Positions 30,793 through 49,982 of a stretch of DNA of 51,829 nt are shown one piece after another. Source of the DNA: a virus; the IMG/VR virus record IMGVR_UViG_3300027852_000047, positions 1-51,829 of that record; one strand, written 5' to 3'. The first letter of the stretch is position 1, and every line of letters begins with the position of its first letter. The notes below the pieces were generated by a model that searched no databases, was not told where the DNA came from, and worked only from the letters and a program-made list of their open reading frames with translations. Made by a program: the position numbers and the translations under genes.

Positions 30793-30821
30793 AGTATACC
30801 ACGGTTACGTGGAGGGGTCAA
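30793..30821 (-). promoter_or_regulatory. Leftward promoter for the ssb gene
   Basis: Minus strand TTGACC (30816-30821), exactly 17 bases, then TATACT (30793-30798). It is close to the sigma-70 consensus and a member of the repeated promoter set of this phage. It overlaps the end of the upstream coding sequence. Confidence 0.75.
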
Positions 30822-30997: not shown

Positions 30998-32710
30998 TTA
31001 ATCACAATCCCTTCTACCTGTCTCAGTGTCAATGCGGCAAGACGCCGCTTCCTCGTCCGCACTGGTCAACAAAGCAGCACGCTTGCCGTCCTTGTTGTAT
31101 ACCGTCAGCCCCTTGATCCCATTGTGCCATGCATCCATGAACATCTGCTGGAAGTCCTCCCACGCACAGCTGGAGTCCAGATTGAGTGTCTTGGACACGG
31201 CACTATCGGCCCAGTAGGCTGCATTGGTGAGTACTGCCATGTGCTCAGCTATCGACACATCTTGGGTGCGCTTGCCCTCCACGCCCAGATACTTATGCCC
31301 ATAGTCCTCAAGCACATGGGCAGTGACCTCACCATCTCCAGCGTAGGCCCTGTTCATCTTGTACGCAAACACAGGCTCGATGCCAGACGACACATTGTCA
31401 GCACACAACGAAATGGATCCGGTGGGAGCCACAGAAATCAGGTGGCTGTTGCGTATGCCGTGATGCACCATAGCTGTACGTAGTTCTTGAGTGAGAGCAC
31501 GTTGAACGTACTCGCTCTGCACGTAGTCTATACGGAAGAACGGGAAAGACCCCTTCTCCTTGGCCAAGTCGATGCTGGCCTTGTACGATTCATGCACCAG
31601 CAGCGTGAAGATGGCGTCCTGCACCGACACGAACGCACTAGACCCATAGCTGTGCCCCATTGCCTCGATGGCATTGGCCAACCCAGTCACACCCAGCCCA
31701 ATGCGCCGCTTGTTCTTGGTTTCCTTCTCTTGTTCATACAACGGGTACACCGCACGGTCAATGATGTTGTCCATGCCCCTCACCACTGGAGGTATGTCTG
31801 CCGCCAGCCTAGCGAAGTCAAAGGTGTACGTGTCGCTGGGAGACTTCCGGAGGTACTTGACAAGATTGAAGGAGCCCAGCAAACACGACCCATGGGGCGG
31901 GAGCGGCTGCTCTCCGCACGGGTTGGTAGCTGTGATGGTTTCACAGTATTTCAGGTTGTTGGTGCTGTTGATGGTATCTATGAACAAGACTCCCGGTTCC
32001 GCCCAGTCCCACGCAGAACGCAGAAGGGTTTCCCATAGGTTACGTGCTCGTATGGTGCTGTACACGCGGCCCCCGAACCGCAAGTTGAAGTCGGTATCTT
32101 GCTCCACTGCGACCATGAATTCATCTGTAACAGCCACTGAAATGTTGAACCCGTTGAGTTCAGTTTCGTTGCGTTTTGCATGAATGAACTCCTCGATGTC
32201 CGGGTGGTCGATGCGCATCACACCCATCTGGGCCCCTCGCCTGTGACCAGACGACGCAACGCACTTACATACAGCGTCAAAGATCTGCATGAAGGTGACT
32301 GGCCCAGAGCTACTACTGTTGAGCTTGTGAATAGTAGCACCACGTGGGCGCAGGGTACTGAAGTCGTACCCAATGCCGCCACCCATACGCATGGTGGTAG
32401 CTGCTTCGGCAGCACGGTCCATGATACTGCCGTGGCCTTCGGTGAAGCTATCTTCAATGGTCCCAGACACATAGCAGTTGTACGGTGTGACATTGCGGCT
32501 GGAGCCCATGGCCGCTTGGACACGCCCTCCGGGCAGGAACCTCATGTCTTTGAGTATGCTGCGCAACGTGTGGTAGTGCGCGTCGTCGTCTGACAGGGCA
32601 GCAGCCACCCGGTTCATTGCGTCCCTGAATGACTCGCCCTTGGAGCGATACTTGTCTGCGTGTAGAGCTATAGAGAATGGTTCGCGCGGTCCGATGTGTT
32701 CGTCTGTCAT
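30998..32710 (-). CDS. nrdJ: Adenosylcobalamin-dependent (class II) ribonucleotide reductase
   Basis: A 570-residue protein. NCYVSGTIEDSF, RMGGGIGYDFSTLRPRG, the SSGHRRGAQMG stretch and NPCGEQPLPPHGSC are typical of B12-dependent NrdJ. The NPCGEQ Cys and Glu and the early NCY Cys are catalytic. APTGSISLCADNVSSGIEP is also conserved, and the C-terminal CRIDTETGRRDC is the redox pair. It converts ribonucleotides to deoxy forms without a second subunit or oxygen. It starts with TAATG overlap. Confidence 0.9.
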   Translation of the reverse strand: MTDEHIGPREPFSIALHADKYRSKGESFRDAMNRVAAALSDDDAHYHTLRSILKDMRFLPGGRVQAAMGSSRNVTPYNCYVSGTIEDSFTEGHGSIMDRAAEAATTMRMGGGIGYDFSTLRPRGATIHKLNSSSSGPVTFMQIFDAVCKCVASSGHRRGAQMGVMRIDHPDIEEFIHAKRNETELNGFNISVAVTDEFMVAVEQDTDFNLRFGGRVYSTIRARNLWETLLRSAWDWAEPGVLFIDTINSTNNLKYCETITATNPCGEQPLPPHGSCLLGSFNLVKYLRKSPSDTYTFDFARLAADIPPVVRGMDNIIDRAVYPLYEQEKETKNKRRIGLGVTGLANAIEAMGHSYGSSAFVSVQDAIFTLLVHESYKASIDLAKEKGSFPFFRIDYVQSEYVQRALTQELRTAMVHHGIRNSHLISVAPTGSISLCADNVSSGIEPVFAYKMNRAYAGDGEVTAHVLEDYGHKYLGVEGKRTQDVSIAEHMAVLTNAAYWADSAVSKTLNLDSSCAWEDFQQMFMDAWHNGIKGLTVYNKDGKRAALLTSADEEAASCRIDTETGRRDCD

Positions 32711-32892: not shown

Positions 32893-33080
32893 GGTTTCTC
32901 CTTGACTACATACGGGGCACTCCTACGTAAGGTTCTAACATTACGTATTGGCAGCACGTACTGTCGTTCGTCAACGAGGTCTAAGACCATGCAATTGCTG
33001 ACGTTAACAATATCGCATACCCCAGCTAACTGAATCTCGTCTCCATTCGCAAACCAAACCCTAACATCGCACACTTCCAT
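32889..33080 (-). CDS. Hypothetical small beta-rich protein
   Basis: A 63-residue protein starting at ATG 33080, which shares its A with the polymerase stop (TAATG). It is a strand-rich protein (VRVWFANGDEIQLAG, MVLDLVDERQYVLPI), perhaps an SH3-like fold. Function unknown. Confidence 0.58.
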   Translation of the reverse strand: MEVCDVRVWFANGDEIQLAGVCDIVNVSNCMVLDLVDERQYVLPIRNVRTLRRSAPYVVKEKP

Positions 33081-35431
33081 TACACATCCACCTTCTTCTT
33101 CGATCCCCACGACTCGCCTATCTCTACGTCACAGCCCATACCAATGGGCAACTCCACGCCCCAACGCTCAGTGTCGGGGTTCGTCATACAATGGTGCGCC
33201 AGCTTGGCTACTTCATCCTCTTCCCCGTGGTACAGGTCCACTACGATGGAGTCATGTACCTGAAGTACGAGCTTGCTTTTGTAGTTGCCTTCTTCCAACG
33301 CACGTGCAAATTTGATCATAGCACAACACGTAATCCACGCCGCAGTGTTCTGCACCAGCATGTTCCAAGCCTGCCGGTGGATGCGCCAGCCGTCGTAGCA
33401 GTTCCAGTATGCGGGCCTAGTGAAGCGCCTGCGGTACCCGAACGGTGACTGGATCTCCAGCGCAGTCTCCACCCGCACATGCACCCGGTCAATGTAGGTC
33501 TTGAGCTGGGGGAACGCTTGGTAGTACTGGACAATGAGTTCTTTGGCTGCGCCCTTGGATATCTCCAGCTGCTGGGAGAGCGTGTTCGCCCCGCCGCCGT
33601 ATAGAATTAAGAACGTCAGCTTCTTGCATCTTTGTCGCTCGTCGTCTACAATGTCGCTTGGGTCTTTGCGCAACATGGTTGCGGCCATGGCTGTATGCAA
33701 GTCCTCGCCAGATTCGATAGCTGCCTTCATTGCCTTATCGCCGGACAACATAGCAGCCACACGGATCTCAGCCTGCGCCATGTCGGCTTCCATGATGGAG
33801 CCGCCCTTGAATCTTGACACAAACTGGGACTTAATGTTGAGCGCCGGGTCGTCGCCCTCTTCACCGTGTGGCACGTTCTGACCGTTGGGATTGGAGGATG
33901 ACAGTCGATTGGTGCCTACCCTATCAGTATGGTAGCCGGGAAAGATGTAGTTCAGCCCGTCTCTCGACACCAAATACTTGTCACGAACCGACTTAACGAA
34001 CGTACCGTGTAGCTTGGCCTGCTTGCGGTACAGTAATACATCCTTGATGACTGGGTGCTTGTGCGCCTCACGTTGCAACACCCACTTCTTGGTAGTGAAG
34101 TCATCATCCGGCTTGTCACCAGCGTTGGGCCGATTGTTGTCGGACAGCTGGCGCACCAACTCACCCTTGGTCAGGTTGATATTGGGCACCACCTCAATGA
34201 GTGCCTTGGCTACCTGAGCTGGGCTGTTGAGGTTGATGGGCCCCAGCACAGCACAGATCTTCTCACGCAGTGCAGTCAGCCGTACGTCAAAATTAGCGTC
34301 TAGTTCCTCATTGATGGGAAGGGAGATGCAAGCTCCGTTGTGCTCCATCTCTGCGAGGACTGCGTATAGCTCCATGGAGAGCTTGAACGGCTTCCGAAGT
34401 CCTTGCTCATCCAGTAGTCGTCGTTGGGACTTGGCTGCACAGACGCTTGCCTCGCCGTCACCGCCACAATACTCGTACTGCTCATCGTCTCCAACAAACT
34501 CCCAGCCACCGCGTTCCGCAACGAGTTGACGGTGTGCTCTGGAATAGTCTCCAAGCCAATCAGCATACAGGAACGTGAGGGACTTGAGGTCTTTGAGCGG
34601 GTTGCGTTCGTCAAGGATGTGTTCTGCCGTAGAGGTATCGTGCATGCATACCATTCTGGTGCCAAATCGACGCAACCAACGATAGTCGAATTTGATATTC
34701 GAGCCTGCTTTTGTGACACTGGGGTCCACGATAATGTCAGTGAGCCATCCCGGGAACGAAGAATCTGGGCGTGCTTGTACAATAGTAGCTTTGTGGGCTC
34801 TATCCGTGATAACACACATGCGTATTCGGGCATCCGGATGCCACGGGTCAAGGCCCGGGTACGTTTCCAGATCCAAGCCAACAATAGAAGCACCAACCAA
34901 GTAATCAGGAATACTATCCCAAACTGGAGTGCCGGGTGTAAGGACATCATAGTCTCCCCACTTGGTTTCCACTGCACCATGCACAGCCGCTAGCAAGTCC
35001 CGCAGGTGCCACTTGTATAGGCCCGTCTGGGAGGCAGCGTGCTCCAGTGAGTGAGTGTAATGGACAGGGCAATCCACATCTGGCGCAGTATGCGCTTGGC
35101 GTAGCCCCTCCTTCAGCAACCCAGCCTTGCCTGAGCCTTGTATAGCTGATATAGCCGTAGGTCCAAAGCACAGTACGAAGTCCGGGTCGATGTCGCGGAT
35201 GTTGGCCAGCAGCTCTGGCCTATGAGCACGCAACACACGAATGCCGGGCTTCTTACGCGCCCCTTGGAACTTGGGGTCTTCAGTGGCGAACAGGTAGTAC
35301 ACCTCCACGCCTGAAGACTCTTCCAACCAGTCAATGTGCTTGGCATTAGTAAGGCACAACGGTTCCCCACCGCGCTTACCAATGCCATAGTCCACGTTGC
35401 CCAGCAGGAAGACTACCTTTTTAATTCGCAT
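33080..35431 (-). CDS. Family A DNA polymerase with 3'-5' exonuclease
   Basis: A 783-residue protein. The exonuclease motifs are VGLDLETYPG, AGSNIKFDYRWL and YCGGDGEASV. The polymerase motif A is MEADMAQAEIRVAAML, motif B is RCKKLTFLILYGGG (Phe at the position of E. coli Pol I F762) and motif C is LQVHDSIVVD, where Ser replaces the usual Glu after His-Asp. The first 140 residues are not polymerase and may resemble a uracil-DNA-glycosylase fold. It starts inside the preceding gene (11-base overlap). Confidence 0.92.
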   Translation of the reverse strand: MRIKKVVFLLGNVDYGIGKRGGEPLCLTNAKHIDWLEESSGVEVYYLFATEDPKFQGARKKPGIRVLRAHRPELLANIRDIDPDFVLCFGPTAISAIQGSGKAGLLKEGLRQAHTAPDVDCPVHYTHSLEHAASQTGLYKWHLRDLLAAVHGAVETKWGDYDVLTPGTPVWDSIPDYLVGASIVGLDLETYPGLDPWHPDARIRMCVITDRAHKATIVQARPDSSFPGWLTDIIVDPSVTKAGSNIKFDYRWLRRFGTRMVCMHDTSTAEHILDERNPLKDLKSLTFLYADWLGDYSRAHRQLVAERGGWEFVGDDEQYEYCGGDGEASVCAAKSQRRLLDEQGLRKPFKLSMELYAVLAEMEHNGACISLPINEELDANFDVRLTALREKICAVLGPINLNSPAQVAKALIEVVPNINLTKGELVRQLSDNNRPNAGDKPDDDFTTKKWVLQREAHKHPVIKDVLLYRKQAKLHGTFVKSVRDKYLVSRDGLNYIFPGYHTDRVGTNRLSSSNPNGQNVPHGEEGDDPALNIKSQFVSRFKGGSIMEADMAQAEIRVAAMLSGDKAMKAAIESGEDLHTAMAATMLRKDPSDIVDDERQRCKKLTFLILYGGGANTLSQQLEISKGAAKELIVQYYQAFPQLKTYIDRVHVRVETALEIQSPFGYRRRFTRPAYWNCYDGWRIHRQAWNMLVQNTAAWITCCAMIKFARALEEGNYKSKLVLQVHDSIVVDLYHGEEDEVAKLAHHCMTNPDTERWGVELPIGMGCDVEIGESWGSKKKVDV

Positions 35432-35708
35432 AGGAACGGGCGTGTGTTACTGCTTTCAAGAGCAACTGCGCAACGACTTCCATGTAGTCGGGATTGCGAA
35501 ATGATAGATCCTCCAAATCCGTACCGTCAATAGCTACCATGCCATTGTTGCTCACTACAGTACGAATACGGTCGAACCAACCGTGCTGGCTGCTGAAAGT
35601 AGCTTTAGGGCTCCTGCGTTTGATCACTGTGTGGCCCTTGGCCTCAAGGGCATGAATAGCCTCAGCCTCGTCCACTTCTACACCATTGAGTTCGATCTTG
35701 GTTACCAT
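35421..35708 (-). CDS. Small paralogue, 'I-x-L-x-G-V-E' family
   Basis: A 95-residue protein beginning VTKIELNGVEVDEAEAIHAL. The same start occurs in the two genes upstream. A helical C-terminus (VVAQLLLKAVTHARSY) matches theirs, while the centre differs. GGAGG lies before ATG. Function unknown; its head-helix-variable-helix layout also recalls the 43-47 kb family. Confidence 0.68.
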   Translation of the reverse strand: MVTKIELNGVEVDEAEAIHALEAKGHTVIKRRSPKATFSSQHGWFDRIRTVVSNNGMVAIDGTDLEDLSFRNPDYMEVVAQLLLKAVTHARSYAN

Positions 35709-35722
35709 TGGTTACCTCCTGT

Positions 35723-36004
35723 TTACTGATGCTTCGCAGCGTAGTCAATGGCGTGGCCAAGGGCAGTATGCGCAGCTCGCGCGTACTCCAAGCACCAGCC
35801 ATCCCCACCGTCTGCGGCAATGTCCTTATGGTAAATGTTAGCCCTATCCCCGTTTTTAGGAGATATGCTCACAGTAAAATTCTTGTACGTCCGGCCGCGC
35901 CGTATGGGAAAGGATTTGTCACACCCTGCGTCATGCTTGGCCACAGCAGCGCGCGCCTTTTCCACATCCACTTCCACACCGTCTAGTTTGATCTTGTTTG
36001 GCAT
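35723..36004 (-). CDS. Small paralogue, 'I-x-L-x-G-V-E' family
   Basis: A 93-residue protein starting PNKIKLDGVEVDVEKARAA. The middle, with CDKSFPIRRGRTYKNF and RANIYHKDIAADGGDGW, is unlike its neighbours. The C-terminal helix has ARAAHTALGHAIDYAAK. ATG overlaps the upstream stop (TAATG) and GGAGG precedes it. Confidence 0.68.
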   Translation of the reverse strand: MPNKIKLDGVEVDVEKARAAVAKHDAGCDKSFPIRRGRTYKNFTVSISPKNGDRANIYHKDIAADGGDGWCLEYARAAHTALGHAIDYAAKHQ

Positions 36005-36288
36005 TAATTATCCTCCGCCCAGTCGCACGCTTTTACCAGTGCGGCTGCAACCTTACGCACGTAATCAACATCCATATGGGCGTTCAATTCGTGGAACTGG
36101 TGCGGAACTTTTGTGAATCTCACGGAACCATGGCCCCTATTGGAGCCTTCCACCCTGAAACTGTCAAACGGGGTGCTAAACACTTTAGCAATGTCTGGGT
36201 CTTGCACCTCATAGCCGAGTTTTCGCAGTGCAGCAGCAGCAGCAGCAGCGTCCGCTTCGACACCATTGAGTTCGATCTTGTCTGCCAT
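36004..36288 (-). CDS. Small paralogue, 'I-x-L-x-G-V-E' family
   Basis: A 94-residue protein starting ADKIELNGVEADAAAAAAAL, followed by a distinct middle (FDSFRVEGSNRGHGSVRF) and a helix (VRKVAAALVKACDWAED). It is the first gene after the promoter at 36498-36526, which probably drives this trio and the polymerase. GGAGAG precedes the ATG. Confidence 0.68.
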   Translation of the reverse strand: MADKIELNGVEADAAAAAAALRKLGYEVQDPDIAKVFSTPFDSFRVEGSNRGHGSVRFTKVPHQFHELNAHMDVDYVRKVAAALVKACDWAEDN

Positions 36289-36337
36289 TTGTCTCTCCTT
36301 TAGTAAATGTAATCGTGACATAAACATCCAGTCATAG

Positions 36338-36904
36338 TCAGCGCGGGTCATATTGGTATCGCCTCAGATCCTCCATCGCACCGAACCTATCCAACCCATC
36401 CTTAGCGCCAAGCACTGCCATGGAATCCACTTGGTCCAGCACGTTGGCGTACTTCTCCACCACATGGTAGTAACCACGTGGCTTGTAATCGTGTACTAGT
36501 ATAGCACACTCATCGTCAAATGTCAACAGGCACGCCAGCACACAGGCCACACGAAAGCGCCCGTCCACCAACACCAAGTCAGCATCGTCCATGGCCCCAG
36601 CCAGTGGGTACAGAGGATAAGCTGGCCACAGGTGCTTGTGGGTGTCCCCAGCTGGGAAGCCCCACTCCTTGGTGGGCCCGAAGCATGGGAAGAACGGAAT
36701 GATACGCCCAGCGGCCATGCCTTCAGCTACGAATTTGTCCGCAGCTACGTTGGCACGGAACCACGCGTAGTCAGATTCCACTGTTACCATTGTAGGTACG
36801 CCCAGCAAAGCGGCCTGAAGGGTACTTTCTCCGGACCCGTACTCAAGGTAACACTCACAATCATCCAATCTCCACTCCAGCTCCGCAACTTCAGCTTCAG
36901 TCAT
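36338..36904 (-). CDS. Class I SAM-dependent methyltransferase-like protein
   Basis: A 188-residue protein. YLEYGSGESTLQAALLG is the SAM-binding glycine loop, TMVTVESDYAWF the acidic strand 2, and DDADLVLVDGRFRVACVLAC the strand 4/5 region, ending with a HDYKPRGYYHVV segment. The substrate is not evident. ATG 36904 overlaps the previous stop in the ATGACTGA pattern seen elsewhere in this genome. A strong leftward promoter lies inside the gene. Confidence 0.72.
   Translation of the reverse strand: MTEAEVAELEWRLDDCECYLEYGSGESTLQAALLGVPTMVTVESDYAWFRANVAADKFVAEGMAAGRIIPFFPCFGPTKEWGFPAGDTHKHLWPAYPLYPLAGAMDDADLVLVDGRFRVACVLACLLTFDDECAILVHDYKPRGYYHVVEKYANVLDQVDSMAVLGAKDGLDRFGAMEDLRRYQYDPR
36498..36526 (-). 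promoter_or_regulatory. Leftward promoter inside the methyltransferase gene
   Basis: Minus strand TTGACA (36521-36526), a 17-base spacer ending TGTGC, then TATACT (36498-36503). It has a perfect -35 and a near-perfect -10. It would serve the three small paralogues and the DNA polymerase downstream. Confidence 0.8.
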
Positions 36905-37106
36905 TGTCGGCTGCATACCTATCCACCTTCTGCTGCAACAGCAGCTCTTGGAAGTACGTCCTGAAGATGCACCTCTTGCAAGTGACGGCATCCAGCACAT
37001 CTGTGTACTGGAAGTTGAAGCCGCGCACAGGGTGACACAGCGGGACACTGGGGTTGTTCGGATCTCGCCAGTGTATGGCTGGGATGCGGTCCAGTGATGA
37101 TGCCAT
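36897..37106 (-). CDS. Small zinc-finger-like protein
   Basis: A 69-residue protein. LCHPVRGF and VTCKRCIFRTYF provide C-H and C-x-x-C ligands. ATG 37106 lies one base after the preceding stop and follows GAGGAG. Function unknown; likely nucleic-acid or host-protein binding. Confidence 0.62.
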   Translation of the reverse strand: MASSLDRIPAIHWRDPNNPSVPLCHPVRGFNFQYTDVLDAVTCKRCIFRTYFQELLLQQKVDRYAADND

Positions 37107-37107
37107 G

Positions 37108-37257
37108 TTACTCCTCATGTTCCATACGTACGCGGTCTAACCTGTCCTGTGCCTCTTTGTAACATGTATCACAATAAGGGCCATCCCCAAGATCGGTGTA
37201 ACAATCCTCATCTTGATCCACGTCAAGTTCCTTGTGACACACTGTACATACAAGCAT
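37108..37257 (-). CDS. 49-residue zinc-ribbon-like protein
   Basis: MLVCTVCHKELDVD then CYTDLGDGPYCDTCYKEA gives two C-x-x-C knuckles with an extra Cys, followed by an acidic/basic helix (DRLDRVRMEHEE). AGGGG precedes the ATG at 37257. It is too small for most gene finders but has clean signals. Confidence 0.6.
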   Translation of the reverse strand: MLVCTVCHKELDVDQDEDCYTDLGDGPYCDTCYKEAQDRLDRVRMEHEE

Positions 37258-37266
37258 ACTGTACCC

Positions 37267-37374
37267 CTACGCTGGAGACAGCGGACCGGGTGGCCCGCCA
37301 TCCCCACTGTTGTATACGGCTATGCCTATGCCAAGCATGACAAGCGCAAGCAGCAGCAACGCCAACTCAGCCAT
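37267..37374 (-). CDS. 35-residue membrane peptide
   Basis: A single transmembrane helix (LALLLLALVMLGIGIAVY) followed by a Gly/Pro-rich tail (GDGGPPGPLSPA). Ribosome site GGAG before ATG 37374. It follows the secreted Fn3 protein and could act with it at the membrane. Confidence 0.55.
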   Translation of the reverse strand: MAELALLLLALVMLGIGIAVYNSGDGGPPGPLSPA

Positions 37375-37375
37375 G

Positions 37376-37717
37376 TTACAGCTCCACCACGGTCGGCTTA
37401 CCGGGGGCACCGGGGGGACCAAGTAAGAGAAACGAGTCGGACGCTTCGCTGAACGGCCCCTGCCTTTCACTAGCGTCCACGCCTGCAACCCGTATCTGAT
37501 GTGAGTCGCCCACCGTAGCCATCAAGGTGAAGGTGGCCAGCTCTGAGATACCTACGCTCACGAACGGCCCGCCATTCACAGAGTGCTGGATGACGTAGTG
37601 CGCCACGTCAGCACCGGAAGTAGGGGCAGCCCAGATGTAGGTGATGGGCTCAGTGTCCTGCCCAAACGCAGCCGTAGCCGCCAGCAGTACCAGCCCAATG
37701 ATGATAACTCTACGCAT
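37376..37717 (-). CDS. Secreted fibronectin type III-like protein
   Basis: A 113-residue protein. A clear signal peptide (RRVIIIGLVLLAATAAFGQ) is followed by one Fn3-like domain: ITYIWAAPTSGADVAHYVIQ, FVSVGISELATFTL, SHQIRVAGVDASERQGPFSE. GGAGG sits before ATG 37717. It is encoded in the leftward, non-virion block, so it is probably exported to the periplasm or host surface, for example to block superinfection. That role is inference. Confidence 0.7.
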   Translation of the reverse strand: MRRVIIIGLVLLAATAAFGQDTEPITYIWAAPTSGADVAHYVIQHSVNGGPFVSVGISELATFTLMATVGDSHQIRVAGVDASERQGPFSEASDSFLLLGPPGAPGKPTVVEL

Positions 37718-38192
37718 TGAGTGCCTCCAACTTATCTCGCACATCCTTAAGATGTCCGATCATTTTGTCGATGTTATTGACATCGAACCAGAAATTGTTC
37801 ATCTTGTACAGCGGGGTGTCGGCCTGCACAAAGTTGAGGATCACAGATTTTGAGGATCTACTATACTCTCCAGCCCTGACAGCGATATTGTTTCCACACC
37901 TGCGCACATCGGTGCTAATGGTGTTATGCTCTTTCACCAACTGAGTCAACGTGCCAGCGCTAACCTTCTTCGGCAATCCACTGATGTCGATCATGTCGGT
38001 ACCCTTAGTGCCTCCGCTCAGTTTGCTCTTGGCATCGCGGTACGCAGCCGTGTTTTTGCAAGACTTGCACGTGACTTCAGTAACGTCCGTAGTCGTTTTG
38101 GTGGCATACCCGTAAGTGTACACACCGCAAGGGGGGTTACTGTACCCAACTCCCGGCGCGTCAAAATGTATCTTAGTCGATCTGCTCTTCAT
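37710..38192 (-). CDS. Hypothetical protein with zinc knuckle
   Basis: A 160-residue protein. VTCKSCKNTAAYRDAKSKL is a C-x-x-C segment with helix. The second half begins MIDISGLPKKVSAGTLTQLV and ends with a helix (MIGHLKDVRDKLEAL), a layout reminiscent of the small paralogue families at 35 and 43-47 kb. No named function. It overlaps the primase gene by 20 bases. Confidence 0.6.
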   Translation of the reverse strand: MKSRSTKIHFDAPGVGYSNPPCGVYTYGYATKTTTDVTEVTCKSCKNTAAYRDAKSKLSGGTKGTDMIDISGLPKKVSAGTLTQLVKEHNTISTDVRRCGNNIAVRAGEYSRSSKSVILNFVQADTPLYKMNNFWFDVNNIDKMIGHLKDVRDKLEALNA

Positions 38193-39000
38193 CCCAAACC
38201 TCCGTCAACCTAGCCCCCATAGAGCTAGGGTCTTGTCCTCTGGGCAATGACAGAATTGACACTGCCCTCCGATCTGATAGCTGGGCCTTCAGCCGAAATG
38301 CTGCAGCTCCGGCATCCTCATCCAACATCACGTGAATACGATCAGTGGCCAGCTGGAGTAAGTCTCGCCGCAAGTAACGTGGCAAGGACTTCCCGCCCAG
38401 CGCAATGACTGGCACGCCAAGGTGCAAGTGCACAGCAATCGCATCCATCACTCCTTCCACCAAGATCCGCACCGAAGCAGGCTCCCAACGCGGGAGGACG
38501 TATAGCGGGTGCCTGCCCGGTGCGGTGATGTACTTAGGGCCTTCTTCTAGGACAGAATAGGCCCGGGACGACCAGTATATCAGCCGTCCGTAAGGTCCGA
38601 AGTACGGGAATAGTACTCGGAGTTGGCGCTGACTCTCAACAAGCCCCAACCTAACGCACGCCTCCGGCGACACGCCGCGCGAGGCCATGTAGTTGATAGC
38701 CCGACAACACAGAGGTTCAAACTCCGGAAGCACCATCTCCGGCCAGTCCCGTACTTCGTTACGCAGAGCCGGGACAAGTTTCTCCAATACTTGCCTACCG
38801 GGGGACGCGGCCTGTAGGCCAACGTCTACCTTACCTCCGCGCTGGTGCTGAGGCGAGTGACAGTACCACATGCCCGTGAGGGGGTTGAGGTACGTCTTCC
38901 AGTTATTAGCGCCACACTCAGGGCAGCACTTGTAGTTGAGTTGGTCGCCGCTCTGGCGATGGTCGCCTACAAAGTCTGCTACTGTGCTGGGTCGCTGCAT
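38173..39000 (-). CDS. DnaG-type primase
   Basis: A 275-residue protein. The N-terminal zinc-binding site is CCPECGANNWKTYLN ... MWYCHSPQH. The TOPRIM fold follows: VRILVEGVMDAIAVH (catalytic Glu), GVPVIALGGKSL and IHVMLDEDAGAAAF (DxD). It makes RNA primers for the lagging strand with the encoded DnaB-type helicase. It is shorter than bacterial DnaG because it lacks a helicase-binding domain. Confidence 0.85.
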   Translation of the reverse strand: MQRPSTVADFVGDHRQSGDQLNYKCCPECGANNWKTYLNPLTGMWYCHSPQHQRGGKVDVGLQAASPGRQVLEKLVPALRNEVRDWPEMVLPEFEPLCCRAINYMASRGVSPEACVRLGLVESQRQLRVLFPYFGPYGRLIYWSSRAYSVLEEGPKYITAPGRHPLYVLPRWEPASVRILVEGVMDAIAVHLHLGVPVIALGGKSLPRYLRRDLLQLATDRIHVMLDEDAGAAAFRLKAQLSDRRAVSILSLPRGQDPSSMGARLTEVWDEEQID

Positions 39001-39152
39001 ATCTTCGCCTCATATCCATAGCCACTACACACCCTGTCAGCATGCACGATGCGCCTGCCCCTGTCGTTACGGTGCAGCCACCGAAGGCACTCATGGCGCT
39101 CTTTGCAGTCCGCATCGTGGCAGCGGCATGTGTCGTGTGCTAATGCAGCCAT
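38979..39152 (-). CDS. 57-residue Cys/His-rich protein
   Basis: HDTCRCHDADCKERHECLRW supplies several possible zinc ligands. AGGG lies upstream of ATG 39152. It overlaps the primase start by 22 bases and the upstream membrane peptide stop. Function unknown. Confidence 0.58.
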   Translation of the reverse strand: MAALAHDTCRCHDADCKERHECLRWLHRNDRGRRIVHADRVCSGYGYEAKICSDPAQ

Positions 39153-39286
39153 GCGTATATCCCTACGCTACACACAAAGGACGCCGCTATGCACAACACG
39201 CGGCCCTTTCGTGTTTCCGCCTGAGTACTATAGACTGCCCAAAGGACTGTACCTACAGTACACAGACCAGCCATTGCAATATTCAT
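39140..39286 (-). CDS. 48-residue two-helix membrane peptide
   Basis: Two hydrophobic segments (IAMAGLCTVGTVLWAVY and VLCIAASFVCSVGIYAWL) are separated by a charged turn (TQAETRKGR). ATG 39286 overlaps the preceding stop (ATGA) and follows GGAGAG. Holin-like in form but located in the leftward early block. Confidence 0.55.
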   Translation of the reverse strand: MNIAMAGLCTVGTVLWAVYSTQAETRKGRVLCIAASFVCSVGIYAWLH

Positions 39287-39666
39287 CTCTCCACCTTCCA
39301 CCTATCGTACTTGCTGACGCGAGATGCAGTCAGTGGTATAGACATGGTAGTCACAGGGCACTTGCCCCACGGTATCAGCCACCACCGATTCGTCTCTGCC
39401 CTCCACACCGCCAACGTATCGAAGTCGTCTGGATGGTAGTGAAGGTGCCGCCCCGTGCGGGACCGCAGCTCCACCTCCAGATACCTCTTGCCACGCTTGG
39501 TGCGGACGAACCCTCGCTTAACCTGCACACGCTCCAGCCCGTTGCCTCTGTCGATTACATAATCCACAGCGTGGCTTTGCACTGGGGTGTATACTCTCCA
39601 GTTGCGATACAGTGCAGACAGCACGAACTCCTGCTGTGCTACTGCACCTCTGGCGCTAGCCGTCAT
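39283..39666 (-). CDS. PD-(D/E)xK nuclease-like protein (Hjc/PDDEXK_11 type)
   Basis: A 127-residue protein. AVDYVIDRGNGLERVQVKRGFV has the catalytic Asp and Q-V-K spacing of small nucleases related to archaeal resolvases and intron endonucleases. It continues with KRGKRYLEVELRSRTG and a Trp-rich C-terminus. It is a possible second resolvase or a nuclease acting on host DNA. ATG overlaps the upstream gene. Confidence 0.66.
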   Translation of the reverse strand: MTASARGAVAQQEFVLSALYRNWRVYTPVQSHAVDYVIDRGNGLERVQVKRGFVRTKRGKRYLEVELRSRTGRHLHYHPDDFDTLAVWRAETNRWWLIPWGKCPVTTMSIPLTASRVSKYDRWKVER

Positions 39667-40019
39667 CCCCGCACCATAGGGTTGGGAATCACGGGCGCAG
39701 GTTGGGACATCTGCACCATGAAGCGCAGGATCGGGTCGTTCATGATCTGCCCCTTGATCTGGGTCAGGGCGAACTCCATCATACCCAGCATCATCACTGG
39801 GGTAGTCCCTTCGGACTCCTTAATGTGGAACAAGCCACCGGGAGACATGGTGATGCGCACTTCGTGCGTCTGGCCCAGCTCCTCCTCAAGGGCTACCGCT
39901 TCTGCTGGGGCGATTTCTGCTTCCCCGTCCAGCGGGAGTTCCATTTGAGTTGGGTCCTTGAGTTCGACTACCTTTTCGGTGTCCTCGAAGGTGTCAGTGT
40001 TGTCAATGGTGTCTGTCAT
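39663..40019 (-). CDS. Hypothetical acidic protein
   Basis: A 118-residue protein with a strongly acidic first half (TDTFEDTEKVVELKDPTQ, EALEEE-like), then a hydrophobic helical section rich in Met (TPVMMLGMMEFALTQIKGQI). AAAGGA precedes the ATG. The acidic surface could mimic DNA, as anti-restriction proteins do, but nothing else supports that. Confidence 0.58.
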   Translation of the reverse strand: MTDTIDNTDTFEDTEKVVELKDPTQMELPLDGEAEIAPAEAVALEEELGQTHEVRITMSPGGLFHIKESEGTTPVMMLGMMEFALTQIKGQIMNDPILRFMVQMSQPAPVIPNPMVRG

Positions 40020-40039
40020 CGTGTTCCTTTCGCTTTGCG

Positions 40040-40222
40040 CTAGTCAAATATCTCAGTTAAGGTACCTATGAGAGTAATAACTAGTCCCACTACACACATT
40101 AGCCCAGCTGCCGCATAACTGGCACCAACAACTGCACAGTGCATGTTGGACGCACTACACTCCAGTACCTCCAACGCTGCTCCGCCCAAAATGAAAAGCA
40201 GCACCCCAAGGATAATTCGCAT
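40040..40222 (-). CDS. 60-residue membrane protein
   Basis: Two transmembrane helices (IILGVLLFILGGAALEVL and YAAAGLMCVVGLVITLIGTL) linked by a Cys-containing loop. ATG 40222 shares its A with the previous stop (TGATG) and has GGAG upstream. Function unknown. Confidence 0.6.
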   Translation of the reverse strand: MRIILGVLLFILGGAALEVLECSASNMHCAVVGASYAAAGLMCVVGLVITLIGTLTEIFD

Positions 40223-40380
40223 CACATACTCCGCTTCAACTTGGCCCTACGCCCAGCCTTCATCATCGCCGGGTGCCCATGGTTGCCAGCGGCAGCAAAG
40301 GCACGGCGGCGTAAGTCATAGGCAGCGCAGGACGCATTGTGCTGGCGGTCAGCCCACCAGCGTCTGATTCTGTTGAACAT
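40222..40380 (-). CDS. 52-residue basic protein
   Basis: Very rich in Arg, Ala and His (NRIRRWWADRQHN, DLRRRAFAAAGNHGHPAMMK, GRRAKLKR). ATG 40380 overlaps the upstream stop (TAATG) and follows GGGAGGA. Probably nucleic-acid binding. No family is recognised. Confidence 0.57.
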   Translation of the reverse strand: MFNRIRRWWADRQHNASCAAYDLRRRAFAAAGNHGHPAMMKAGRRAKLKRSM

Positions 40381-40637
40381 TAGTCCTCCCTAAACTTGTT
40401 GCATTGCTCGATTCCTCTTTGCAGAGCACGGATAAGCACCATTACGTTAACGGGTTCCCAGCCATAGTCGTCAGGCAACATAACGGCCCTACGTTTTATT
40501 ACTACACCCGTACGCTTGGCCGCTACGTCAACTCCGCAGCCCCCGCCGCAGTCCACAGGTTCCTTCGCCCGCTCGTCATACTCAACCAACGCAGCTCTCA
40601 CTTCGTTAGCGTCAGCTTGGCATGTGATCCTGATCAT
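40380..40637 (-). CDS. Small paralogue, 'EADA-VRAAL' family
   Basis: An 85-residue protein starting MIRITCQADANEVRAALVEYD. It is closely related at the N-terminus to the next gene upstream, with a Gly/Cys-rich centre (DCGGGCGVDVAAK) and a helical end. I chose the ATG at 40637, which is spaced correctly from GGAGG; an ATG at 40643 is too close. Confidence 0.63.
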   Translation of the reverse strand: MIRITCQADANEVRAALVEYDERAKEPVDCGGGCGVDVAAKRTGVVIKRRAVMLPDDYGWEPVNVMVLIRALQRGIEQCNKFRED

Positions 40638-40639
40638 CG

Positions 40640-40903
40640 TCATCCCTCCATTTTGGAAAGAGCCATAGTCAGCGCATCGCGAAGTCTTTTCACATTGCCA
40701 TACGACCAGCGGTGCTCACAGTGTGCATATAAGACACCTTTGTACGTTTCCCTGATAAGGCAGTACTCTTTGGAAGCACTAACTCTCACGTTGCAATGTC
40801 CACCGAAATTCTCCACGGCGTCCTTGGCCTTGTCATAGTCAACCAACGCAGCCCTCACGGCTTCAGCGTCAGCCTCACAGTTGATGGTGATCTTGTCAGT
40901 CAT
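40640..40903 (-). CDS. Small paralogue, 'EADA-VRAAL' family
   Basis: An 87-residue protein starting TDKITINCEADAEAVRAALV. It shares the head with its downstream neighbour, has a different Cys-containing middle (FGGHCNVRVSASKEYC) and a C-terminal helix (RLRDALTMALSKME). It lies 41 bases downstream of a strong promoter -10 box, with AAAGGA as ribosome site. Confidence 0.65.
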   Translation of the reverse strand: MTDKITINCEADAEAVRAALVDYDKAKDAVENFGGHCNVRVSASKEYCLIRETYKGVLYAHCEHRWSYGNVKRLRDALTMALSKMEG

Positions 40904-40943: not shown

Positions 40944-40972
40944 AGTATAGCACACCTACCGGGACAAGTCAA
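40944..40972 (-). promoter_or_regulatory. Leftward promoter
   Basis: Minus strand TTGACT (40967-40972), a 17-base spacer ending TGTGC, then TATACT (40944-40949). It has the same spacer length and extended -10 as the promoter at 36.5 kb. It drives the small genes from 40,903 leftward. Confidence 0.8.
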
Positions 40973-43110: not shown

Positions 43111-43410
43111 TTAGTAGGCGGGCATGGTATCATGCACACCCTGCAGTTCACTGATGACCCGCGCCAGCTCCCGCTTGTTGGGGTAGGCGTAGTTGTCACC
43201 GAAGTTGGATTCCTTGCGACCCAGATAAATCCGGGGCAGATTATCCGGGCCGGGGCGTTGCACAACGAGGCGCACGCCACACGAAGTAAACCGCGTATTG
43301 ATTCCGTCGTCAAAGGCAGGCTTGATTGCAGCACTGAACCCCTGAGCAGACAGTTGGGCGATGAGGCTGTCAAGATCCACAGTCGCACCGTCGATGGTGA
43401 TGTTGGCCAT
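43111..43410 (-). CDS. INIDG-family small protein, copy 1
   Basis: A 99-residue protein: head ANITIDGATVDLDSLIAQL, then SAQGFSAAI, a unique middle (FDDGINTRFTSCGVRLVVQ) and the family C-terminal helix ELARVISELQGVHDTM. It starts 2 bases after the next copy's stop. The family is not one I can name. Confidence 0.72.
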   Translation of the reverse strand: MANITIDGATVDLDSLIAQLSAQGFSAAIKPAFDDGINTRFTSCGVRLVVQRPGPDNLPRIYLGRKESNFGDNYAYPNKRELARVISELQGVHDTMPAY

Positions 43411-43412
43411 TG

Positions 43413-43724
43413 TTACTCCATTTCCGCGTGAGTCTTCTCCAACTCATCAATAAGGTGGCGCAAGCCAGCCTTGGTATAGTGCTGTCCAGTTCCCCACGAA
43501 ATATCATCAGTGCGTCTGTTGTTGAATATGCTGATGTCCACGGTGTGCATGCAGCTGGGGTCCACGGAGTAGCGCCGCACGCGAGCCTGCGCATTGCCCG
43601 GGGACTTGATGTTCCACTCAGTTATGCATTTGCGCGTGATGGTAGCGTCGTACCCCTGTGCCCGCAGCTGCGTTTGCAGTGCGTCCAGTTCGACAGACGC
43701 CCCGTCGATGTTGATGTTGGCCAT
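43413..43724 (-). CDS. INIDG-family small protein, copy 2
   Basis: A 103-residue protein: head ANINIDGASVELDALQTQL, RAQGYDATI, a middle with VRRYSVDPSCMHTVDISIF, then C-terminal helix GLRHLIDELEKTHAEME. AAAGGAAC precedes the ATG. The middle is unlike the other copies. Confidence 0.72.
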   Translation of the reverse strand: MANINIDGASVELDALQTQLRAQGYDATITRKCITEWNIKSPGNAQARVRRYSVDPSCMHTVDISIFNNRRTDDISWGTGQHYTKAGLRHLIDELEKTHAEME

Positions 43725-43726: not shown

Positions 43727-44011
43727 TTACCAGTTCCTTTCACTCTTGATGCGCTCCATCTGTGCCATCAGGCGCAGGAAGCGGGTTTTGTCATAAATGC
43801 GCGTGGCTCCCCGATCAAAGTCGGAGATGCGCAGCTCTACGCATTCGGGGTCGGAGGTGCGCTCGTAAGCGGTCAGCCCTGAGTTCATGGCGTTACCACT
43901 GAGAGGCAGGAACGCGGCTTTGATTGTAACGTCAAAGCCCTGCGCCTTGAGCTGGCGCACCAGCTCGTCCTTGTCAACGGCAGCGCCGTCGATGTTGATG
44001 TTGTTGTGCAT
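43727..44011 (-). CDS. INIDG-family small protein, copy 3
   Basis: A 94-residue protein: head HNNINIDGAAVDKDELVRQL, KAQGFDVTI, a middle with YERTSDPECVELRISDFDRG, and helix FLRLMAQMERIKSERNW. AAAAGGAC lies before the ATG. Shares only head, helix and spacing with its relatives. Confidence 0.72.
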   Translation of the reverse strand: MHNNINIDGAAVDKDELVRQLKAQGFDVTIKAAFLPLSGNAMNSGLTAYERTSDPECVELRISDFDRGATRIYDKTRFLRLMAQMERIKSERNW

Positions 44012-44020
44012 GTCGTCCTT

Positions 44021-44326
44021 TTACCAGCCCATTTCGTACTGGATTTTCTGGAGTTCCTTGACCAGTTCGTTGGTGCGTTCCTTGTCCAGTATCGAACAGT
44101 TGTTATCAAACTGCTCGTCCTCGACGTAGTCAGGATCACCGATTGTCATGCGGTATGTGCCGGAGCCGTCTTTTTCAACGGTCATAACGAACGTACTGCG
44201 GTCGATACGTCGCCCTGTTTCCACCAGCCCATAACTGCGCTCGATACTTGCGGTGAAGCCCTGCTCTTTGAGCTGGGCTATGAGCGAATCCCGCTCTACC
44301 GTAGCACCGTCGATGTTGATGCCCAT
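44021..44326 (-). CDS. INIDG-family small protein, copy 4
   Basis: A 101-residue protein: head GINIDGATVERDSLIAQL, KEQGFTASI, a middle with STFVMTVEKDGSGTYRMTIG, and the typical end NELVKELQKIQYEMGW. The middle motif YRMTIGDPD is shared with copy 5 (FYMAIGDPD), so these two are the closest pair. Confidence 0.72.
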   Translation of the reverse strand: MGINIDGATVERDSLIAQLKEQGFTASIERSYGLVETGRRIDRSTFVMTVEKDGSGTYRMTIGDPDYVEDEQFDNNCSILDKERTNELVKELQKIQYEMGW

Positions 44327-44335
44327 GTCGTCCTT

Positions 44336-44629
44336 TCACCAGCCCATTTCGGACTGGAACTGCTGAAGTTTCTCGATCAGTGCGGCCATGTCGTGCCTGT
44401 CGGTCAGCACCAGAGCTTCCTCAAGCCCGGCGTCCGGGTCACCGATTGCCATGTAGAACATTTCCTCATTATGACGTTCGGTAAACACACCGATGTCACG
44501 CACGGTGGTCAGCCCGTACTCGGAAAGGTCATGGCGCTTGGCCAGCTCCACTTTGTACCCCTGCTCTTCGAGCTGGCGCACAAGCGAACTCTTCTCGACG
44601 GTCGCGCCGTCGATGTTGATGTTAGCCAT
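44336..44629 (-). CDS. INIDG-family small protein, copy 5
   Basis: A 97-residue protein: head ANINIDGATVEKSSLVRQL, EEQGYKVEL, a middle with GLTTVRDIGVFTERHNEEMF and MAIGDPDAG, and end MAALIEKLQQFQSEMGW. AAAGGATA lies upstream. Closest to copy 4. Confidence 0.72.
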   Translation of the reverse strand: MANINIDGATVEKSSLVRQLEEQGYKVELAKRHDLSEYGLTTVRDIGVFTERHNEEMFYMAIGDPDAGLEEALVLTDRHDMAALIEKLQQFQSEMGW

Positions 44630-44685
44630 TGTTGGTTATCCTTTCTACTGGGCTACGCGCCAGCTTTGCGTTGGTTGTGCCAACT

Positions 44686-44997
44686 TTACTCGCCCAGTTC
44701 AGTAGCCAGTTCGCCCAGCATGTTCGCCAGTCCGCGCAACTGGTACCCGCTGAAGCACATGTACCCTTCGGGGACAGTGTACCCCATCGCATTGCAGTTG
44801 ATCTGTATGCCTGCCCACTTATGGCTGCACACCGGATCAGAGGAATGAGCCACATTCATTGAGACGCCTTTGTCAGATCGGCGGCCTTCTATGATCTCCG
44901 CTTTCTTTTGAATAGACACCTCGAAGCCCTGCTCCTCCAGCTGAGCCGTGAGCATGTCCAGTTCGACGGTCGCGCCGTCGATGGTGATGTCAGTCAT
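44686..44997 (-). CDS. INIDG-family small protein, copy 6
   Basis: A 103-residue protein: head TDITIDGATVELDMLTAQL, EEQGFEVSI, a Cys-containing middle (AHSSDPVCSHKWAGIQINCN) and end GLANMLGELATELGE. ATG overlaps the stop of copy 7 by 8 bases (ATGACTGA type). Confidence 0.72.
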   Translation of the reverse strand: MTDITIDGATVELDMLTAQLEEQGFEVSIQKKAEIIEGRRSDKGVSMNVAHSSDPVCSHKWAGIQINCNAMGYTVPEGYMCFSGYQLRGLANMLGELATELGE

Positions 44998-45280
44998 CCC
45001 AGCCCCACTTCTCGTTGTAGGCCGTCTGGAATACGTCGATCATGTTACGGAAATCCTCTTTGTCCAGCTTGGCAATCACACTGAACCCCGCATTTTCGAG
45101 CAGGTGAATGTGTGGGCCGTTACCGCTGAGAACCACCCCGTTGGTGTCATAGTTCTGACTCAACAGGTGATAACGCGGCACCTTCTTATTGATAGTGGCG
45201 TCGTAGCCTTGGGCCTCAAGCTGGCGCATGAGGTTGTCCTTGTCCACGTTGACACCGTCGATGTTGATGCTGTTGTCCAT
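44990..45280 (-). CDS. INIDG-family small protein, copy 7
   Basis: A 96-residue protein: head DNSINIDGVNVDKDNLMRQL, EAQGYDATI, a middle with NYDTNGVVLSGNGPHIHLLE, and end FRNMIDVFQTAYNEKWGW. AAAGGAAC precedes the ATG. The middle differs from every other copy. Confidence 0.72.
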   Translation of the reverse strand: MDNSINIDGVNVDKDNLMRQLEAQGYDATINKKVPRYHLLSQNYDTNGVVLSGNGPHIHLLENAGFSVIAKLDKEDFRNMIDVFQTAYNEKWGWDD

Positions 45281-45291
45281 GTGTTCCTTTC

Positions 45292-45588
45292 CTAGGCCAG
45301 TTCGGCCTTGACCTTGTTCAGCTCGCTGATGAGCTGGTCGATGGCGCGGCGGGTCATGGTGTATGTCTTGTCTTTGTTGTTGCCACTGTAAGCCCCAACC
45401 CCAAAATAAATCTGGGCTACTTGCTCACTGTACGGGTGTATCTCCAGATACGAGGCATTGTAAAAGCCCACTACGCGCTTTTCCACGCCCCGTACCTTGT
45501 GGATACTGACATCAAACCCCTGCTCTTCGAGCTGGCGGGTAAGGCTGCCAGTGTCCACGTTGACACCGTCGATGTTGATGTTGGCCAT
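45292..45588 (-). CDS. INIDG-family small protein, copy 8
   Basis: A 98-residue protein: head ANINIDGVNVDTGSLTRQL, EEQGFDVSI, a Tyr-rich middle (VVGFYNASYLEIHPYSEQVA) and end DQLISELNKVKAELA. AAAGGAC lies before the ATG. Confidence 0.72.
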   Translation of the reverse strand: MANINIDGVNVDTGSLTRQLEEQGFDVSIHKVRGVEKRVVGFYNASYLEIHPYSEQVAQIYFGVGAYSGNNKDKTYTMTRRAIDQLISELNKVKAELA

Positions 45589-45603
45589 GTCGTCCTTTCG
45601 GCA

Positions 45604-46227
45604 TCAGATTTCGATGCCCAGTTCGCGCAGCTTCTCCAGAATTTCATCCGTATCGCTGCTGTTCTGGCAGATGACTTCGATTTGCGTCGTCATGTCAGCC
45701 AACTTCTGCAAGTAATCGGTGTGTGCCGACAGCTTGCCCCGGAGTTCCTGTCCCGCATCGGAACAGTACGAAATGTCGAACTGCTGTTCGGGCAGCTCTC
45801 CCTCGCGCACGCAGACGGTGGCCGGATCGACAGCACTGTCTCGCCAAGCGTAGTTGAGATGGAACCCCATCTCGCCCAGCTCATGCTCCACAGCCTTCTT
45901 ACGGTCACGCTTCGGCGCGTTCAGCTCATTGGCTGCCGCGTGCTTATCCAAAATAACCGCCTTGTCAGCTTCGTACTGGTCCCGAAGGGCCTGAAGCTCG
46001 TCACGGTTACTCTTGCGCACAGCCGAAGCGGCATCGTTGATTGCGTACAGCTCGTTGGCCAAGTCGGTAGCGCCATGCTGGCGCGCCAACGCTTTGGTGA
46101 TGTCCGCAGTCGCACGTTCCTTGGTGCGCGTGGCTTCGATCCTCATATTACCCAGCAGGTTGTGTGCGTTGTTGGTCAACGTCTTACGCTGCGTGGCAGT
46201 CGCGTTCTTCTTCTTCTTTTCGCTCAT
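45604..46227 (-). CDS. Coiled-coil protein within the INIDG array
   Basis: A 207-residue, highly charged helical protein: basic N-terminus (MSEKKKKNATATQRK), long coiled coil (RDELQALRDQYEADKAVILD), then a globular section with two Cys and a helical end (DEILEKLRELGIEI). Ribosome site GGGAGG. It sits between copies 8 and 9 of the array and could be their partner or scaffold. No family is recognised. Confidence 0.68.
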   Translation of the reverse strand: MSEKKKKNATATQRKTLTNNAHNLLGNMRIEATRTKERATADITKALARQHGATDLANELYAINDAASAVRKSNRDELQALRDQYEADKAVILDKHAAANELNAPKRDRKKAVEHELGEMGFHLNYAWRDSAVDPATVCVREGELPEQQFDISYCSDAGQELRGKLSAHTDYLQKLADMTTQIEVICQNSSDTDEILEKLRELGIEI

Positions 46228-46265
46228 ATTACACCTCCCTTCGAGCCGTTAGGGTTTGGCGCATG

Positions 46266-46514
46266 TTACCAATATTTCGCGGATGCGCGGACAATGTAGC
46301 CGTCTTCGACGTACATATACGCGCTCCAGTACTTGAAGTAACTGGCTTTTGAATTTTCCTGATAGATACGATGCTTGCCGGTAAGCACCACAGAGTTATC
46401 TGTCGCTATCAGTTGGAGCTTCACGCCATTACGCAAGGCTCTTTGTAGCGCCTCCAGTGTCTTGTAAGCCCGTGACAATCTGGGCGCGTCTTTGCCGAAG
46501 TGGTTGGTTTCCAT
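46266..46514 (-). CDS. Hypothetical protein within the INIDG array
   Basis: An 82-residue protein starting METNHFGKDAPRLSRAY; helix (KTLEALQRALRNGVKLQLIA), then a Tyr-rich strand section (YFKYWSAYMYVEDGYIVRA). ATG 46514 shares its A with the stop of copy 9 (TGATG). It lacks the INIDG head but has similar length. Confidence 0.6.
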   Translation of the reverse strand: METNHFGKDAPRLSRAYKTLEALQRALRNGVKLQLIATDNSVVLTGKHRIYQENSKASYFKYWSAYMYVEDGYIVRASAKYW

Positions 46515-46819
46515 CAGGTCCACGCCATTTCTCGCCGGATCTTCTGCAATTCCGCGATGATACCGGACAGGCGGTCTTTGTTCACGATAGCGTAATCGCT
46601 ATCGTGTCTGACATCGCAGTCGCCCAGCGTCATTCTCACGGTGTCGGTGTTCGCGCTGGCGGATACGCACAACTGGCACGCGCCTCTCGCGCCAAAACGC
46701 TTTCCGACACTCTTCAGGCCCACGCGTCTTGTGATAGTGGCGTCGAACCCCTGCACGTGCAGTTGGTTGATCAGACTGACCGTGTCTACGCCCGCACCGT
46801 TGATATTAATAGTACCCAT
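46514..46819 (-). CDS. INIDG-family small protein, copy 9 (most divergent)
   Basis: A 101-residue protein: head GTININGAGVDTVSLINQL, HVQGFDATI, a middle with CQLCVSASANTDTVRMTLGD and end LSGIIAELQKIRREMAW. GGGAGG is well spaced for ATG 46819. Unlike the others its head-coding DNA does not contain the common 13-base GTCGATGKTGATG match. Confidence 0.7.
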   Translation of the reverse strand: MGTININGAGVDTVSLINQLHVQGFDATITRRVGLKSVGKRFGARGACQLCVSASANTDTVRMTLGDCDVRHDSDYAIVNKDRLSGIIAELQKIRREMAWT

Positions 46820-46829
46820 TTTCACCTCC

Positions 46830-48704: not shown

Positions 48705-48950
48705 CTACCAAGGTCTTTCAGTCTTGTGCGCCTTGCGTTGCATCAAGTTGCGCGTGCTGGCCCTGATCCGCATGACTTGGTCCTGCGGTTCTCTGTCTTT
48801 CTTTGCCTGTCTGTCTCCGAAGATACAACTAGCATGTGGCCTGTCGTCTCCGGTAATCACGGGGGGAACACTTCCTACCCGTTTGGCCTCTGCTAGCACC
48901 TTGTTGTCCTGCAAGGACTGTGCCACCTTGGCCCTATTGTCGATGTACAT
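48705..48950 (-). CDS. Hypothetical charged protein, first leftward gene
   Basis: An 81-residue protein (MYIDNRAKVAQSLQDNKVLA, RQAKKDREPQDQVMRIRAS). ATG 48950 is preceded by AAAGGA at correct spacing. It is hydrophilic and basic near the end. It is the first gene downstream of the promoter at 49.73 kb, so probably among the earliest expressed. No family is recognised. Confidence 0.6.
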   Translation of the reverse strand: MYIDNRAKVAQSLQDNKVLAEAKRVGSVPPVITGDDRPHASCIFGDRQAKKDREPQDQVMRIRASTRNLMQRKAHKTERPW

Positions 48951-49233
48951 TCATACATCCTTTTGTTGTGCCAGAGGTTAGGGCCTTGTGGGCCTCTGCC
49001 CCCGGCGGACATGCCAAGATATGCAGGCTGTGTGCCTGATATCGGGATAATGGTGTAAGTTATTACACTGCAACGGGTTACGAGCTTGGTTGCTATTGGT
49101 ATGTATCTTGCTAACCATGCATAATGCAACCCTACTATACATATAGTAATCGCCTAAACCTATGTGATATATGCACTTATGAGGTATTCGCAATGTGCAA
49201 TGTGAGTATGCATTATGCCCTATGCTGCATGTG

Positions 49234-49282
49234 TGTCTCATTTGAGACATAATGTCTCACTGGTATCTGTGGAGTGAGACAT
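49234..49282. promoter_or_regulatory. Four TGAGACA sites (operator or origin cluster)
   Basis: TGAGACA(T) occurs at 49243-49250 and 49275-49282, and in reverse at 49234-49240 and 49252-49259. The middle two form a palindrome, TGAGACAT-A-ATGTCTCA. This arrangement is typical of binding sites for a dimeric regulator or an initiator protein. Confidence 0.55.
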
Positions 49283-49331
49283 ACATGTCCTAAAAACAGG
49301 ACACTAATGCATATTGCATTGGGCATACCGA

Positions 49332-49380
49332 CATGCATGCATACTGCATTGGCCCAGTGGCATGCATGCATAATGCATGG
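49332..49380. repeat. GCATGCAT direct repeat pair
   Basis: CATGCATGCATACTGCATTGG (49332-49352) is repeated with small changes at 49361-49380. Other TGCAT/ATGCA words are frequent from about 49117 to 49400. Alternatively this could be simple-sequence drift, but the spacing of nearly three helical turns is suggestive of iterons. Confidence 0.5.
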
Positions 49381-49555
49381 GGCAAGGGAGTATGCCATTG
49401 TGTCATGCGGTATGCTGTCATGTGTCCGGGGGTACACGTACTCTTTTTAGGACACTTACCCCCACACAGGCCCACAGGGGCGTATATCACCCATTTAATG
49501 CAGTCTGGCCAATACTTGCTAAAATAAAAAACACCCCCTATACAAAAAGCATACT

Positions 49556-49597
49556 CACATAGGGCTACCCACATAGGGCTACCCACATGGGGCTAGC
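49556..49597. repeat. Triple 14-bp tandem repeat
   Basis: CACATAGGGCTACC occurs at 49556-49569 and 49570-49583 exactly, and at 49584-49597 with two changes. It lies between the TGCAT region and the leftward promoter. Confidence 0.75.
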
Positions 49598-49958: not shown

Positions 49959-49982
49959 TGTATAGATCGAAAAGGCACTGTG

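Follow-up and report, generated by a model that had tools for sequence, protein, structure and literature searches.

Genome organization

The window analyzed here is the whole of one IMG/VR virus record (51,829 bases). Bases 8 to 133 are an exact repeat of the last 126 bases (51,704 to 51,829), and on the basis of this exact 126-bp end overlap, the record maps as a complete circle of ~51.7 kb. The end repeat is apparently unregistered for the IMG/VR record, and the first nine bases (TTCCGATCT) resemble the end of an Illumina adapter. The arbitrary cut splits one gene, the reading frame at the left end continuing that at the right end; judging from its position and our reading of the sequence, this gene probably encodes the large terminase.

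Portal, major head, and tail proteins are encoded by rightward genes up to ~24 kb. The leftward genes (~26 to 49 kb) encode a DnaB-like helicase, a Cas4-like nuclease, a ribonucleotide reductase, DNA polymerase A, a primase, and a metal-dependent phosphohydrolase. The genome is that of a previously undescribed tailed phage, and no close relatives were present in the collections searched. Regarding matches elsewhere, the DNA polymerase showed 31 to 33% identity in the majority of IMG/VR loci recovered, the major head protein 33%, and the portal protein 22 to 25%. The ribonucleotide reductase (30998 to 32710, minus strand) shared 61% identity with its counterpart in Pseudomonas phages AAT-1/PaMx74, far above the other genes searched, and that counterpart is annotated as a class II, B12-dependent enzyme. 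A long noncoding, repeat-rich stretch (48900 to 50050) with many TGCAT/GCATGC words and GTCTCA separates the leftward genes from the terminase side and is possibly an origin or control region. Within the replication block, a small protein with a signal-peptide-like start (37376 to 37744, minus strand) weakly matched the tail-fiber J family (PHROG 31; E value, 2.5e-4), an odd location for such a gene.

Small genes of the leftward block

The leftward block contains three sets of small genes (Table 1), namely, a trio (35,421 to 36,288), a pair (40,380 to 40,903), and an array of nine (43 to 47 kb), whose 14 products are 87 to 103 amino acids (aa) long. The trio runs directly into the gene for DNA polymerase A (33,080 to 35,431), the start of which is overlapped by the end of T1 by 11 bases.

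Table 1. Small genes of the three sets and associated features of the window
Feature	Position	Strand	Length (aa)	Remarks
T1	35421..35708	-	95	Trio gene 3; starts MVTKIELNGVEVDEAEAIHALEAKGHTV...
T2	35723..36004	-	93	Trio gene 2; starts MPNKIKLDGVEVDVEKARAAV...; start overlaps T3 stop
T3	36004..36288	-	94	Trio gene 1; starts MADKIELNGVEADAAAAAAALRKLGYEV...; RBS aaaggagagacaa
D1	40380..40643	-	87	Pair gene 2; start overlaps D2 stop (ATGA)
D2	40640..40903	-	87	Pair gene 1; probable, unproven family member; profile and shuffle comparisons
A1	43111..43410	-	99	Array member; sequence comparison
A2	43413..43724	-	103	Array member; sequence comparison
A3	43727..44011	-	94	Array member; sequence comparison
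A4	44021..44326	-	101	Array member, structure predicted; sequence comparison and AlphaFold2
A5	44336..44629	-	97	Array member; sequence comparison
A6	44686..44997	-	103	Array member; sequence comparison
A7	44990..45280	-	96	Array member, closest to T1; sequence comparison
A8	45292..45588	-	98	Array member; sequence comparison
A9	46514..46825	-	103	Array member; sequence comparison
Promoter-like site	30793-30821	-		TTGAC-N18-TATACT; third site, pattern match
Sigma-70-like promoter	36498..36526	-		TTGACA-17-TATACT; ~210 bp upstream of trio; top score in 35 to 51.8 kb
Sigma-70-like promoter	40944..40972	-		TTGACT-17-TATACT; ~40 bp upstream of pair; second-best site of the region
tRNA-like element	50821-50875	+		Rfam RF00005, 29.6 bits, just over threshold; without ARAGORN call

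Third codon positions hold most of the differences between heads (484 of 966 in the array), and a Shine-Dalgarno-like sequence lies just upstream of all five trio and pair genes; we therefore regard the leftward frames as the coding ones. None of the 14 frames is disrupted, most have a recognizable ribosome site, and together they occupy ~4 kb of the 51.7-kb genome. Long antisense open reading frames (ORFs) over the array (43885 to 46299, plus strand; 280 and 292 aa) were rejected as shadows, an apparent by-product of the codon usage of the leftward genes. Promoter-like sites with at most one mismatch numbered seven in the whole window, compared with 0.48 expected.

The feature common to the trio and array proteins, and probably to those of the pair, is an N-terminal head of 25 to 28 residues, predicted to form a beta-hairpin, a helix, and a G-[FYH] turn. 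An earlier note on this DNA had read the trio heads as I-[EK]-L-[ND]-G-V-E-[VA]-D, which is what the three genes encode, at the positions given there (IELNGVEVD, IKLDGVEVD, and IELNGVEAD). Within the array, mean identity was 0.56 for the head and 0.16 for the body. Head and body distances were uncorrelated (Mantel r, -0.32, at low power because most bodies are near random in identity). The heads of A7 and A8 are 72% identical in DNA, while their bodies are 5% identical; A4 and A9 have the closest bodies (37%), but their head DNA is just 56% identical. These comparisons, made on short heads and saturated bodies, are suggestive only of partly separate histories for heads and bodies (e.g., through recombination at the heads).

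The same note had proposed a common layout of a short strand, a helix, a variable middle, and a C-terminal helix. For the array, the layout was borne out by an AlphaFold2 model based on the nine-member alignment (strands at residues 2 to 5 and 8 to 11, a helix at 12 to 21, later strands, and a C-terminal helix at 82 to 99). The three head blocks had mean pLDDT values of 79, 92, and 87, the middle was poor, and the C-terminal helix was at ~70 (overall, 68). The trio model gave the same order of elements (E E H ... E E H), although its pLDDT of 45 is too low for it to stand as evidence on its own.

Relationship between the trio and the array

Trio and array genes of this genome are alike in head, length, strand, and predicted order of elements. 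Their heads differ in detail (K-I-[EK]-L-[ND]-G-V-E in the trio versus I-[NT]-I-[DN]-G-[AV]-x-V in the array), and their bodies are not alignable, with no detectable similarity past the head. When a trio profile was compared with the 980 stop-to-stop ORFs of the window, the first non-self matches were A7, A3, A8, and A4, and all nine array genes ranked in the top 17. In the reverse direction, the first non-self match of the array profile among the same 980 ORFs was T1 (E value, 0.0085), which is the trio member closest to the array (best link, to A7) and which also clustered with the array at an E value of <1e-4 in an all-against-all comparison of 303 ORFs. Profile-profile comparison, as the earlier note had advised, yielded significant mutual matches confined to the ~28-residue head (hhalign probability, 71%; E value, 3.9e-5; 29 columns), and none of 600 column-shuffled trio profiles reached the observed score. 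The motif I-x-[IL]-[DN]-G-[VAIL]-x-[VA]-[DE] occurred 12 times in the six frames, in the nine array heads and the three trio heads only; this motif was composed after the heads had been seen, and shuffled translations averaged 0.005 occurrences.

How far the similarity extends bears on whether it reflects descent. The note had taken a lack of similarity beyond the first ten residues as grounds for giving up the idea. Residues 12 to 22 after the hairpin glycine matched in register between trio and array (p = 0.0026), and the p values for in-register similarity past residue ten were 0.0014 to 0.0026, so that the likeness is not confined to the first ten residues. Residues 22 to 40, anchored on the same glycine, gave no match between the two sets, and unanchored profile searches between them were not significant once the first 12 residues had been removed. 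Given these two results, we limit the claim to the ~28-residue head rather than the whole protein.

Codon choice provided a further line of evidence. Identical residues in trio and array heads used the same codon at a rate of 0.51, compared with 0.35 in simulations (reached in 0 of 1,000; in 20 of 1,000 with a stricter codon usage table taken from the families themselves). The starts of unrelated leftward genes, used as a control, had a same-codon rate of 0.334, equal to that of the rest of those genes and thus without excess. An excess of shared codons in heads was also found within the array, within the trio, and within the pair.

On these data, we consider it highly probable (roughly 0.9) that the trio and the array share common descent through the ~28-residue head. 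The competing view is that trio, pair, and array are unrelated and that their starts converged on a generic beta-hairpin and amphipathic helix. Protein starts of this kind are common, and both the absence of similarity between bodies and the disappearance of the trio-array signal on removal of the first 12 residues fit such an origin. Convergence nevertheless appears improbable in view of the mutual best ranks in both directions, the in-register match up to residue ~28, and a head codon identity that exceeds expectation and is backed by the start-region control. The codon excess favors common descent.

The pair and the 37.7- to 38.2-kb protein

The pair heads are MTDKITINCEADAEAVRAAL and MTMIRITCQADANEVRAAL, and D1 and D2 are 34 to 37% identical. 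The pattern given earlier for them (I-T-x-x-x-[EQ]-A-D-A-x-x-V-R-A-A-L) was recovered in place, except that its second residue is T in one protein and R in the other. Compared with the trio, the pair gave an hhalign probability of 25% (E value, 7.5e-4) over ~22 residues, given a one-residue deletion in the turn, and the observed score was reached by 0 of 600 and 3 of 600 column shuffles. The pair-trio codon excess was not significant, and profile-profile comparison of the pair with the array gave no match. We regard the pair as a probable, though unproven, relative of the trio and not convincingly a relative of the array.

The second half of the 37.7- to 38.2-kb protein had been thought similar in outline, which our comparisons with the trio and array did not support: among 100 shuffles, between 2 and 100 attained its summed profile scores, according to the direction of comparison. 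The cysteines in the N-terminal half of this protein (37710 to 38192, minus strand) are arranged in a way that resembles a zinc ribbon, and this half faintly matches 36,897 to 37,118 (E value, 0.005; single comparison). Of the single superfamily of up to about 15 members that had been envisaged, the trio and array parts are retained and the pair is a probable addition, while the 37.7- to 38.2-kb protein drops out. The family would accordingly have 12 firm and 14 probable members.

Searches for relatives elsewhere

For the trio, pair, and array genes tested, nothing exceeded the curated cutoffs of Pfam, and PHROGs and PADLOC gave nothing at an E value of ≤0.05. No homologue was found by tblastn on phage records, in IMG/VR scans that used the array, the trio, the pair, and T1 as queries, or in GTDB genomes. 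A DNA pattern run against IMG/VR returned four matches, all to unrelated proteins. A sequence profile search of the PDB returned a 26-residue stretch of CpcN (E value, 0.001) that fails as a domain and was taken as chance, and weak matches to SPO1 Acb4 (E value, 2.1) and SIRV1 ORF131 (E value, 0.96) were left unused. Foldseek searches of the PDB and BFVD with the array model gave no match at an E value of ≤0.001. No comparable array was seen in the stretches fetched from distant phage relatives (found through their DNA polymerase, their portal, or their major head protein), and nothing directly matching was found on tandem paralogue arrays in phages in the literature searched. In these searches, no homologue, domain, or significant fold match pointed to a function for the family.

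Possible function of the family

We tentatively propose, at somewhat less than even odds, that the members are small early accessory proteins, each made of a constant head and a variable body, and that they target host factors or serve in counterdefense. This guess is based on the position in the replication block, the host-type promoters, the protein size, the copy number, and the constant-head/variable-body anatomy. The family would have grown by tandem duplication and relocation, with the heads kept alike, possibly via recombination between copies, and the bodies diverging. Each member would be a small, soluble protein; its constant head would provide a folding or docking core, while its variable body would bind a host factor or defense component of its own. 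Expression would occur early in infection, as judged from position and consensus promoters only, with two sets transcribed from their own host-type sigma-70 promoters. A more speculative and doubtful extension is that the copies recombine so that heads are kept alike and bodies are exchanged or diversified, yielding a renewable host-targeting set from one constant head.

The nearest working precedent is provided by the internal proteins Ip1, Ip2, and Ip3 of T4 (Tequatrovirus), which are small, nonessential, and alike in a common N-terminal head and little else, each being an inhibitor of a distinct type IV restriction nuclease (PMC12373910; PMC9026906). The T4 head, a 10- to 19-residue propeptide, directs packaging and undergoes cleavage, whereas that described here is a 25- to 28-residue, predicted folded hairpin-helix encoded in the replication block, and no sequence relation was found. 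A second parallel, the dmd-tifA locus of T4, encodes a small counterdefense protein (85 aa) and is repeatedly amplified in tandem under toxIN selection (PMC9391042). That amplification is recent and identical, in evolution experiments, whereas the copies of the present family are old and divergent and lie at three sites.

The T4 case also suggests that the proteins described here could be packaged in the virion and injected, the head being a capsid- or virion-targeting module and the bodies acting in the newly infected cell. The contrast between head and body is that of T4 Ip1 to Ip3, in which only the N-terminal leader is common and each of the unrelated bodies blocks its own GmrSD nuclease (PMC12373910; PMC9026906). 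We consider packaging unlikely, however: the genes belong to the replication block, with its sigma-70-like promoters, and not to the rightward head genes, and the head is 25 to 28 residues long and predicted to be folded (pLDDT, ~80 to 92). The cut-site consensus of T4-type internal proteins is [LI]-x-E. The heads have no such common site at a fixed position (A1, LSA; A2, LRA; A3, LKA; A7, LEA; A9, LHV), and on this point they do not qualify as T4-type internal proteins.

Gene order suggests another possible role, in which the trio encodes replication accessory proteins cotranscribed with DNA polymerase A and the family as a whole has replication roles. The overlap of T1 with the polymerase start and the promoter preceding the trio are consistent with it, and because the trio lies just upstream of the polymerase, these three genes could equally well have a role in replication. 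As an account of the family, it is rather improbable, since gene order is all that speaks for it, the other nine members are 7 to 11 kb away, and polymerase accessory factors would not usually be expected in a dozen divergent copies. Finally, the copies might represent near-neutral or selfish amplification, persisting in tandem and decaying without a common function. The strong divergence of the bodies and the undetectable function agree with this, but the intact frames with their ribosome sites, the third-position bias of the head differences, and the space occupied in a compact genome make it the least likely of these explanations.

For a phage of 51.7 kb, at least a dozen orphan paralogues represent a large investment in one function. 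If these are counterdefense proteins, they would form a compact, testable inhibitor library whose members combine a constant with a variable part. Recombination of the heads, if it occurs, would be a simple route for a phage to diversify its host-interaction proteins.
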